From contig JAIPJR010000019.1 in assembly GCA_021734045.1 (NCBI GenBank), forward strand, positions 1 to 37,209: a DNA stretch of 37,209 nucleotides, read 5' to 3'. This stretch comes from Fidelibacterota bacterium (GTDB taxonomy: Bacteria; Fidelibacterota; UBA8477). Positions 26,220 through 28,386 of this stretch are shown in pieces (position 1 is the first letter of the stretch; every line of letters begins with the position of its first letter). The notes under the pieces are model-generated. The model saw only the letters and a list, made by a program, of their open reading frames with translations, was not told the origin of the DNA and did no database searches. Position numbers and translations under genes: made by a program.

Positions 26220-26243
26220 TTCAGTAGCCTTTTTTTCTTTCAA

Positions 26244-26263
26244 TTATGAACATATGTTCATAA
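26244..26263. promoter_or_regulatory. Perfect 20-bp palindrome, likely operator of the metal cassette
   Basis: TTATGAACATATGTTCATAA is self-complementary over all 20 bases and ends 9 nt before the DUF134 start codon. The core TGAA-N6-TTCA resembles operators of ArsR/SmtB metal sensors. No ArsR gene is in the window, so the binding protein is either encoded elsewhere or is the DUF134 protein itself (inference). Confidence 0.65.
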
Positions 26264-26272
26264 AATTGGGCC

Positions 26273-26698
26273 ATGGCAAGACCACGCAAAATCCGTCAGG
26301 TTCAATTCCCACCACGGTACAACAGCTTCAAACCATGCGGTGTACCCAGTCAGGGTTTATCCAAAATCGAATTAACACTGGATGAGTATGAGGCGCTGCG
26401 CCTTGTGGATGAACAGCAGCTGGATCACGAAACCGCTGCAGCCATCATGGAGGTGTCGCGCCCTACTGTAACCCGATTGGTGGAAAGCGCCCACAACAAG
26501 GTGGCTCGCCTGCTTGTACGGGGTGGTATGTTGGTCATCCAGGGCGGTGATTATCAATTGAATGGCCACCTCTACCATTGCCCCAAATGCCGTAATTTTC
26601 AGGAACGGTTACAAAAAATACGCACGGCGAATCAGCCATGTCCACAGTGTAAAGAGAGTCATTTGGTGGAAATTTCCCTACCAGGGGCACGCCAATGA
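26273..26698 (+). CDS. DUF134 / UPF0251 family DNA-binding protein
   Basis: 141 aa starting 'MARPRKIRQV', the standard UPF0251 opening. A sigma-70 region 4-like helix-turn-helix follows ('LTLDEYEALRLVDEQQLDHETAAAIMEVSRPTVTRLVESA'). Two CxxC pairs in 'CPKCRNF ... QPCPQCKES' form an appended zinc ribbon or metal sensor site. Members of this family are often found near NifX/NifB-like dinitrogenase-cofactor-family proteins, as here. Likely the regulator of the cassette. Its stop overlaps the exporter start as ATGA, so the two are translationally coupled. Confidence 0.85.
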   Translation: MARPRKIRQVQFPPRYNSFKPCGVPSQGLSKIELTLDEYEALRLVDEQQLDHETAAAIMEVSRPTVTRLVESAHNKVARLLVRGGMLVIQGGDYQLNGHLYHCPKCRNFQERLQKIRTANQPCPQCKESHLVEISLPGARQ

Positions 26699-27744
26699 AT
26701 CTACAGGAAAACCTGAAATTCGTGGGTGGCATATTCGAGCACAGCATCGCCATTACCTTCTTCGTGTTTGTCATGATGGTAATTGTGGAGGCGGTCCATG
26801 TGCTTTCCCGGGGGCGCTGGGAGGCCTATTTTTGCGCCCGGGGTGGTATCCATCAATACATCTGGGCAATTCTCCTGGGTGCGCTTCCCGGTTGTCTGGG
26901 GGGATTTGCAGCTGTCACCCTATTTCAGCACAGGCTCTTCTCTCTGGGGGCTTTGGTAGCCACCATGATTGCCACCAGTGGTGATGAGACCTTCGTCATG
27001 CTCGCGTTATTCCCCAAAATGACCCTTTTTCTGACCGGTGTGCTCATGGTCGTGGCATTTGTGGCCGGTTACCTGACCGATCGTGTCTTTCATACCGCGC
27101 CCGCTGTTACCGACGCGTCGGGATGCGATAAACTGGAAATCCATCCCAAGGCCGAGATTCCACCGTTTCGTCCATGGGCGCTTATCCGGGCGGAGTGGAG
27201 GCAACCGGACTGGCTTCGCTTGCTCACCATTCTGACCCTGTTCATCTTGTTGGTGCTGTTTGCCTTTGGTATTCTGGGGCCGGCTGTCTGGAACTGGAAG
27301 CGCATCACTTTCCTTGGTTTGGGTGGCTTCACACTTTTGGTTCTGATTTTTTTCCCGGGGCACTTTGTTCAAACCCATATTGTTCAGCACATCGTCCGGG
27401 AGCATGTCCTGCGGATTTTTCTCTGGACATTTGGCGCGTTATTGCTGGTACAGGTTAGCCTGAAATACCTGGATCTGGACAGCCTGCTGAATGCAAATCC
27501 AACCCTATTAATTCTGAGTGCCGGGTTGATTGGCATCATTCCGGAATCGGGACCGCATCTGGTATTTGTGACCCTCTTCAGTAAGAATGTCATTGGGTTC
27601 GTGCCACTGTTGGTAAGCTCTATCGTCCAGGATGGGCATGCCATGTTGCCGCTATTGGCCTTTTCCCGTAAACGGTTTTTGCAAATTAAAGGTATCAATC
27701 TGCTGGTGGGACTCATCATCGGTGGTTTGTGGTTGGTATTTTAA
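26695..27744 (+). CDS. Putative multi-TM heavy-metal exporter (ArsP_2 / DUF2899 type)
   Basis: Integral membrane protein of 349 aa with about nine to ten hydrophobic segments and a hydrophilic loop in the middle (~145-180). Features of the putative 10-TM metal exporter family include 'VEAVHVLSRGRW', 'LGALPGCLGGF', 'ATSGDETFVMLA' and the repeated-half counterpart 'GIIPESGPHLVFV'. These conserved charged and polar residues inside membrane segments fit a cation path. Transported ion unknown; arsenic and manganese have both been proposed for relatives. Coupled to DUF134 by a 4-nt overlap and followed 39 nt later by the His-rich NifX-like gene. Confidence 0.8.
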   Translation: MNLQENLKFVGGIFEHSIAITFFVFVMMVIVEAVHVLSRGRWEAYFCARGGIHQYIWAILLGALPGCLGGFAAVTLFQHRLFSLGALVATMIATSGDETFVMLALFPKMTLFLTGVLMVVAFVAGYLTDRVFHTAPAVTDASGCDKLEIHPKAEIPPFRPWALIRAEWRQPDWLRLLTILTLFILLVLFAFGILGPAVWNWKRITFLGLGGFTLLVLIFFPGHFVQTHIVQHIVREHVLRIFLWTFGALLLVQVSLKYLDLDSLLNANPTLLILSAGLIGIIPESGPHLVFVTLFSKNVIGFVPLLVSSIVQDGHAMLPLLAFSRKRFLQIKGINLLVGLIIGGLWLVF

Positions 27745-27783
27745 AATAAATCGTCCCTACAGGGGACATTTCAGGAGGCGGAG

Positions 27784-28224
27784 ATGACTAAAAAACTGGC
27801 GTTCGCAACAAACGATGGCGAAACGATTCATGCCCATTTTGGGCAGGCGCAATATTATGAGATTGTTGAACTTGACGACTCGGGCATCACATCAAGGGAA
27901 CGTGTTCCCAAATTCGGTCTCCATGGCAGTGATGATTCTGCATCCCATGGGCATGGTCAGGGTCAGGGTCACGCGGAGCGACATGGCGGTGGTGGTATGG
28001 GACACGGAATGGGCCGAGGAGAACGACACCGGGCAATGTTTGAGCGAATTGCCGGTTGTGATTATCTGGTAGCCAGGGGCATGGGTGAATCGGCTGTGAT
28101 GAATGCCGCGGGAACCGGATTGCAGGTTATTCTGTGCGATGAAAAGACCATTGACGCAGCAGTTGAAAAGTTTCTACGGGGCGAGTTGATGCATAATAGC
28201 GGACGGGTTCATAAGCACCATTAA
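27784..28224 (+). CDS. His-rich NifX/NifB-type dinitrogenase-cofactor family protein
   Basis: 146 aa with a strong ribosome site (AGGAGG). The fold motifs of the Nitro_FeMo-Co family are clear: 'KLAFATNDGETIHAHFGQAQYYEIVELDD' and the second half 'GCDYLVARGMGESAVMNAAGTGLQVILCDE'. Between them is an insertion rich in His and Gly ('HGHGQGQGHAERHGGGG'), and the protein ends 'HKHH'. No nitrogenase genes are present, so a role in metal binding, buffering or sensing for the adjacent exporter is more likely than FeMo-cofactor synthesis (inference). Confidence 0.85.
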   Translation: MTKKLAFATNDGETIHAHFGQAQYYEIVELDDSGITSRERVPKFGLHGSDDSASHGHGQGQGHAERHGGGGMGHGMGRGERHRAMFERIAGCDYLVARGMGESAVMNAAGTGLQVILCDEKTIDAAVEKFLRGELMHNSGRVHKHH

Positions 28225-28260: not shown

Positions 28261-28386
28261 ATGAAACGCTCTGGTGTGGGTTCCCTTTTTACCTGGTTCT
28301 GCTTCCTGCTGACGCTTTCAGAGTCGTCAGTCTTCACGGCCATAACGAGGGACCGCTTCCGGTTCCCAATCTTGAATCAGCCGTAA
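28261..28386 (+). CDS. Short ORF with signal-peptide-like start, possibly frameshifted
   Basis: A 41-codon ORF with a good ribosome site (GAGGAAGAAAA before ATG) and a hydrophobic N-terminus (KRSGVGSLFTWFCFLLTLSE). After that the frame looks unlike a protein. The +2 frame across the same DNA continues to a stop at 28437-28439 with a more natural composition ('HGHNEGPLPVPNLESAVRIG'). A real exported small protein broken by a frameshift or large internal deletion is possible, as is chance. It would be the fourth gene of the metal cassette. Confidence 0.3.
   Translation: MKRSGVGSLFTWFCFLLTLSESSVFTAITRDRFRFPILNQP

Follow-up and report, generated by a model that had tools for sequence, protein, structure and literature searches.

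Introduction

Classical metalloregulated efflux operons, such as those of the czc, ars and znt types, pair a regulator with an exporter. The locus analyzed here resembles them in that a regulator gene comes first, a probable operator lies over the promoter and the putative exporter gene is translationally coupled, but it differs in that its regulator, its exporter and its third protein all belong to families without a known function and in that the presumed sensor is a separate protein with a NifX-type domain. Two described systems share this domain (IPR003731). IssA, an iron-sulfur (thioferrate) storage protein, is a small soluble IPR003731 protein that binds iron and sulfur (PMC5524996); it shares with the protein of our locus the small soluble format and an unusual appended segment, yet this segment is a cationic, aromatic and Gly-rich tail in IssA and a His/Gly-rich loop here, and no regulator or exporter is described alongside IssA in the passages considered. 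The ORP complex and MrpORP of Desulfovibrio also contain a NifX-type domain, which MrpORP joins to an ATPase, and MrpORP carries Fe-S (PMC6345978). Mrp ATPases are likewise common near relatives of our operon; the operon itself, however, lacks an ATPase gene, and ORP operons are, by their description, under the control of sigma-54.

We analyzed a stretch of 37,209 nucleotides, referred to as the window (contig JAIPJR010000019.1), from the genome G000 of a Candidatus Neomarinimicrobiota member (2.54 Mb in 119 contigs, 92% complete). An initial reading of the DNA letters, here called the sequence-only reading, had described the function of a three-gene combination within it as experimentally unsettled, and in agreement with this, we found no paper in the open-access literature that assigns a function to DUF134, UPF0251 or PF11449. 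Our preferred explanation, to which we give a probability of about 0.55, is a locally autoregulated efflux operon with a single operator, in which the NifX-like protein would be the metal-sensing partner of DUF134 and the ArsP_2 protein would be the exporter.

Results

The operon consists, in this order, of a 20-bp palindrome and three co-directional genes encoding a DUF134 protein, an ArsP_2 (PF11449) membrane protein and a His-rich Nitro_FeMo-Co protein, referred to here as NifX-like (Table 1). The first two genes overlap by 4 bp, and the third follows after a gap of 39 bp and is preceded by a GGAGG motif. In the sister genome G020 (L032, CG1_02_48_14), where DUF134 is divided between two contigs, the genes occur in identical order and are followed by CoaE and Adk as in the window, and in the sister genome G057 (apparently the L035 contig), DUF134 and ArsP_2 are kept as far as the contig end. 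The exact order of the trio was found only within this genus; the sister family has ArsP_2 as a solitary gene. Comparison of the window with G057 yielded a dN of 0.08 and a dS of 1.15 for DUF134, and although the synonymous sites of ArsP_2 and the NifX-like gene are saturated relative to the sisters, 15 consecutive bases of the operator are identical in all three genomes. Judged by these comparisons, the trio is genuine and subject to selection. The sequence-only reading had proposed a coupled three-gene cassette with a palindrome, and the perfect palindrome, the shared direction, the overlap and the retention of the trio in a sister genome bear this out. Its remark that nitrogenase genes are missing from the surroundings holds for the whole of the 92% complete genome, which contains no PF00148 match; the only PF02579 protein encoded in G000 is the product of the third gene.

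Table 1. Positions of the features in the window
Feature	Position	Strand	Basis or remark
Probable operator, perfect 20-bp palindrome TTATGAACATATGTTCATAA	26244..26263		Ends 9 bp ahead of the DUF134 start codon; unique in the genome; motif recurs upstream of DUF134 in other phyla
Possible promoter: TTTCAA (26238-26243), 17-bp spacer with operator, TAAAAT (26261-26266)	26238..26266	+	From loci with TTGCAT-operator-TATATT
141-aa DNA-binding protein of the DUF134 (UPF0251) family; putative autoregulator	26273..26698	+	PF02001, E 6.6e-25
DUF134 helix-turn-helix, residues 36-83, recognition helix SRPTVTRLVESAHN	26378..26521	+	AF2 model; resembles sigma-70 region 4 and the DNA-binding domain of B. 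subtilis DeoR
CxxC...CxxC zinc-ribbon-like segment, C-terminal (C103, C106, C123, C126)	26579..26650	+	Alignment
ArsP_2 (PF11449) membrane protein, 349 aa, internal repeat; putative transition-metal exporter	26695..27744	+	PF11449, E 3e-27; AF2; alignment
Ribosome-binding site GGAGG of the NifX-like gene	27774..27778	+	Sequence
146-aa His-rich protein of the Nitro_FeMo-Co family (IPR003731/PF02579), which may partner DUF134 as metal sensor and/or buffer metal	27784..28224	+	PF02579, 5e-13
His/Gly-rich insertion in the NifX-like fold, residues 47-82	27922..28029	+	Alignment; comparable loop insert in L138 and L043

The interval from the NifX-like gene to coaE contains an open reading frame of 41 aa (28261-28386, plus strand), whose start resembles a signal peptide (MKRSGVGSLFTWFCFLL...) and which has a purine-rich leader; it is perhaps a remnant.

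All three proteins scored above the gathering thresholds of their Pfam families, with 88 versus 27 bits for PF02001 (profile positions 5-96 of 98), 96.2 versus 32.5 bits for PF11449, where the model is that of a helical, multi-helix membrane protein, and 49.6 versus 26.3 bits for PF02579. The protein labels of the sequence-only reading were thus largely upheld, including that of a CxxC zinc ribbon in DUF134: its cysteines are conserved in all aligned members that reach the region, although the match to Zn_ribbon_8 (3e-5) is weak and lies under its cut-off. The label NifX-like holds for the domain family only, as the model of NifX proper (TIGR02663) gave 23.7 bits versus an NCBIfam cut-off of 112, and the MrpORP model (NF041136) gave 28 versus 450 bits, with the NifX part alone matching. 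The helix-turn-helix of the DUF134 model superposes on B. subtilis DeoR and sigma-70 region 4 (7bhy, 8r7y, 5uxx) with 0.6-1.2 Å over about 40-47 residues; unlike DeoR, DUF134 proteins lack a sugar-binding domain and have a C-terminal zinc-ribbon-like or fused NifX domain. The DUF134 gene is also preceded by a CATATG-centered palindrome, a family feature that we propose in this analysis.

The inner 16-mer of this palindrome occurs once in the 2.54-Mb G000 genome when up to 2 mismatches are allowed. It precedes DUF134 in both sisters, exactly in G020, where it is also the sole occurrence at up to 2 mismatches, and with 1 mismatch in G057, which contains an additional one-mismatch match within a coding region. 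The upstream region could be read for 37 DUF134 genes, which represent the Neomarinimicrobiota and six or so further phyla (about seven in total), and 28 of these regions matched at least 12 of the 16 positions; since the operator windows were picked by best match, shuffled sequences served as the control, in which 0.67 such matches were obtained on average and 4 at most. The operator-bearing upstream regions include those of Campylobacterota, Cloacimonadota, Deltaproteobacteria, Bacteroidota/Chlorobiota and Calditrichota, and many DUF134 genes are preceded by two tandem copies. At several loci (L118-L123, L127 and L128), TTGCAT and TATATT are 17 bp apart, and the operator takes up this spacer. 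The corresponding promoter candidate in the window is weak by consensus and was not reported by a promoter scan; from it, transcription could begin at the DUF134 ATG or close to it, which would give a leaderless transcript.

Most DUF134 genes on plasmids of Bacillota, Spirochaetota and Gammaproteobacteria have related sites in which the CATATG core, or one near to it, is combined with differing arms, as in ATTGACATATGTCAAT and TATGGCATATGCCAAT. A G directly precedes the core on its 5′ side for 9 of 9 proteins with an SRQT recognition helix versus 3 of 29 others (Fisher p of 1.3e-6, from a hand tally and a test that ignores phylogeny); in this Q-type form, GGCATATGCC, the Gln at the recognition-helix position accompanies the G. 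The operator half-site thus appears to change with the recognition helix of DUF134. Because the palindrome is unique in the genome, because a match is carried by 28 of the 37 upstream regions and because the half-site tracks the recognition helix, it is very probably the operator of DUF134, which is predicted to bind DNA ahead of its own gene. The operator appears new within the open-access literature.

The 12-mer GAACATATGTTC within the palindrome is identical to the Gram-positive SOS consensus, a 12-mer found in SOS and phage papers, and could be read as a LexA box. However, the upstream regions of G000's own lexA and recA genes contain no such box, for which reason we ruled this reading out, and the motif follows DUF134 across phyla while keeping its CATATG core and not the GAAC arms; the chance that the palindrome is an SOS box is negligible. 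We also rejected the presence of the operator ahead of ArsP_2 as a general rule. In Sulfurimonas (L040), the operator precedes DUF134 and recurs directly before ArsP_2, but only 2 of 110 ArsP_2 upstream regions exceeded the threshold, of which L040 alone is convincing, the match in L010 lying within a coding region.

In 149 genomes of the phylum, a PF02579 match was found within 5 kb of 28 of 48 DUF134 genes, versus 0.45 expected for uniform placement on a 2.5-Mb genome, and PF02579 was present in 41 of the 42 DUF134-bearing genomes, the phylum sets being draft genomes. On plasmids of Proteus, Citrobacter, Salinivibrio and Peptoclostridium, the two genes are adjacent or overlap. Furthermore, Treponema, Selenomonas, Pusillibacter and Roseburia (Bacillota and Spirochaetota) encode single proteins in which DUF134 is followed by PF02579 and then by a His/Cys-rich tail. 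By these sequence criteria, the partnership of DUF134 and the NifX domain is strongly indicated, and because the two are both fused and paired, they probably share a function, most simply as a sensor and its DNA-binding part.

Small Gly-rich proteins with two CxxC motifs were observed near or behind DUF134 (L063:5770-5979, L084:3473-3685, L098:4927-5238, L101:2038-2256, L104:5122-5364, L122:1995-2219 and L136:2262-2486), and the three that were scanned (L063, L098 and L101) had no Pfam match. In L063, L084, L098 and L104, the order is DUF134, the small CxxC protein (His-rich in L098) and ArsP_2. DUF5320-like Gly-rich proteins also recur in DUF134/NifX neighborhoods (L101:4802-5122, L119, L122, L125, L128, L136 and L145; L101 alone was scanned).

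For ArsP_2 in the phylum genomes, PF02579 was present at a distance of up to 5 kb in 13 of 34 cases (0.27 expected under the same uniform placement, so that the excess over chance is about 50-fold) and DUF134 in 3 of 34 (0.10 expected). Across many phyla, the fetched flanks of 41 of 80 ArsP_2 loci contained genes for NifX-domain proteins, Mrp-type ATPases or DUF134. ArsP_2 therefore seems to belong, more loosely, with the DUF134/NifX circle. The sequence-only reading would have been undermined had no conserved neighborhood existed elsewhere; the neighborhood search showed that the DUF134/NifX/ArsP_2 neighborhood is conserved elsewhere.

These neighborhoods bear on the role of the NifX-like protein, which contains 13 His residues in its 146 aa, few Cys residues and, besides the inserted loop, a His-rich C terminus (VHKHH). 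The sequence-only reading took the trio for a regulator, a pump and a soluble metal carrier; DUF134 would then sense metal by its own zinc ribbon, and the His-rich protein would only be a cytosolic carrier or buffer feeding the ArsP_2 pump. Such a carrier could explain why 11 of the 80 loci scanned have a NifX-domain gene directly adjoining ArsP_2 in the same orientation, mostly without an adjacent DUF134, and why CDF cation exporters with a C-terminal Nitro_FeMo-Co domain, predicted on the cytosolic side, adjoin or lie near ArsP_2 (L073:4110-5333, L077:2139-3335, L086:7006-8211 and L042:2228-3640); by sequence, these fusions would add an exporter-linked, metal-binding role for the domain. The His-rich segment is moreover kept in kind and not in place, as a loop insert in the window and a C-terminal tail in the sister locus L032, as expected for a simple chelating appendage. 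Conversely, the DUF134-NifX fusions carry their His/Cys tail without an attached transporter, and the short DUF134 proteins of L159 and L161 lack the zinc ribbon and are still paired with NifX. Regulator and pump therefore stand, with the operator tracking DUF134 across phyla, whereas the carrier, albeit possible, is less likely and gives way as the best reading to a sensor or co-regulator, to which the fusions and the constant pairing point.

Mrp/NUBPL-type ATPases were found near 27 of the 80 ArsP_2 loci, and L053 combines DUF134, NifX, two ATPases, a second NifX and ArsP_2, in this order, in one operon, L101 being similar. Together with the union of both domains in the Fe-S-carrying MrpORP (PMC6345978), this would fit a reduced ORP/Mrp-type system for an iron-sulfur or mixed-metal cofactor, in which the cargo of ArsP_2 is a component that cluster assembly requires or of which it is a leftover. 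Yet the missing ATPase gene in the window operon sets it apart, and the His-rich insert and low Cys content point more to a divalent metal than to a bound cluster, which makes such a system quite improbable for this locus.

The preferred reading requires ArsP_2 to export a metal. Its AF2 model is confident (pLDDT of 89.5), its two halves are homologous (hhalign probability of 94%, E value of 1.5e-7), and the invariant residues in an alignment of 78 homologues include C67, D97, E98, H228, H232, H237, H288 and H315, which would suit a transition-metal dication. A sequence search for relatives of solved structure returned none, and Foldseek gave a weak likeness to elevator carriers of the DASS/IT superfamily (NaS1, NaDC1 and INDY; best E value of 0.098, TM of 0.44-0.51, NaS1 TM of 0.48). 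This likeness and the NCBIfam name of the family, arsenic efflux protein (NF037962, 124.4 versus a cut-off of 100), would accord with transport of an oxyanion or organic arsenical, or with a sodium-coupled ion transporter. The invariant acidic and His residues and the CDF-NifX neighbors instead favor a cation, as does the RefSeq name of one plasmid member, putative manganese transporter, so that a substrate other than a metal cation is doubtful at best. We found no experiment behind either name. Among plasmid ArsP_2 copies, a search for context gave one weak archaeal match with uninformative neighbors. The A-site HDHD of the neighboring CDF proteins suggests a Zn type for these exporters, without carrying over to the ArsP_2 substrate. 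An Rfam scan of the window and 74 of the 80 ArsP_2 loci revealed no metal riboswitch, and neither a riboswitch nor a known metalloregulator site pinpoints the metal there. Collectively, ArsP_2 is a putative heavy-metal exporter, with the direction of transport predicted as well.

Discussion

In the preferred reading, DUF134 would bind the CATATG-centered palindrome overlying the promoter of its own gene and would repress the operon; we infer repression rather than activation because the operator sits between the −35 and −10 elements. The indications for the operator and for autoregulation are strong as far as sequence goes. The His-rich NifX-like protein would bind a transition-metal species and alter the activity of DUF134, thereby relieving repression, and would perhaps also act as a buffer, and ArsP_2 would then export the metal across the membrane. 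As the effector, an iron or iron-sulfur species is slightly favored because characterized members of the domain family bind iron (PMC5524996, PMC6345978); the His-rich segments would also fit Zn, Ni or Co, and Mn is possible too. Against this reading, most ArsP_2 loci have neither a DUF134 gene nor the operator, and the zinc ribbon of DUF134 could itself be the sensor.

More tentatively, and with chances that we place a little short of even, DUF134 may constitute a widespread, undescribed family of metalloregulators with one operator code, in which the recognition helix sets the half-site, a NifX-type sensor acts in trans or is fused and ArsP_2 is one effector exporter; a nitrogenase-cofactor domain would thus have been recruited as a transcriptional metal sensor. 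Three families that are common in anaerobes and have no assigned function become testable together. Should the NifX-like domain prove to be the sensing part, gene regulation would be added to the roles of a domain associated chiefly with nitrogenase and Fe-S biogenesis. PF11449, whose present names point to arsenic or manganese, could be assigned via the inducer of the regulator. The predicted operator offers a concrete DNA target for the family across bacteria and archaea, including the DUF134-NifX pairs on enterobacterial conjugative plasmids.

DUF134-NifX pairs also occur with SLAC1- or YeiH-type transporters or with none, which leaves room for an effector other than a metal cation. On plasmids, such pairs were observed with transporters of the SLAC1 family (L159:3855-4835) and the YeiH family (L158:1780-2775), which suggests that the regulator pair is not tied to a single type of exporter. 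DUF134-like genes, as in L159 and L161, matched 189 plasmid records (69 of Klebsiella, 57 of Citrobacter and 17 of Escherichia), 114 of them typed as conjugative, and in both enterobacterial plasmid records that were opened, DUF134 was paired with a NifX-family gene.
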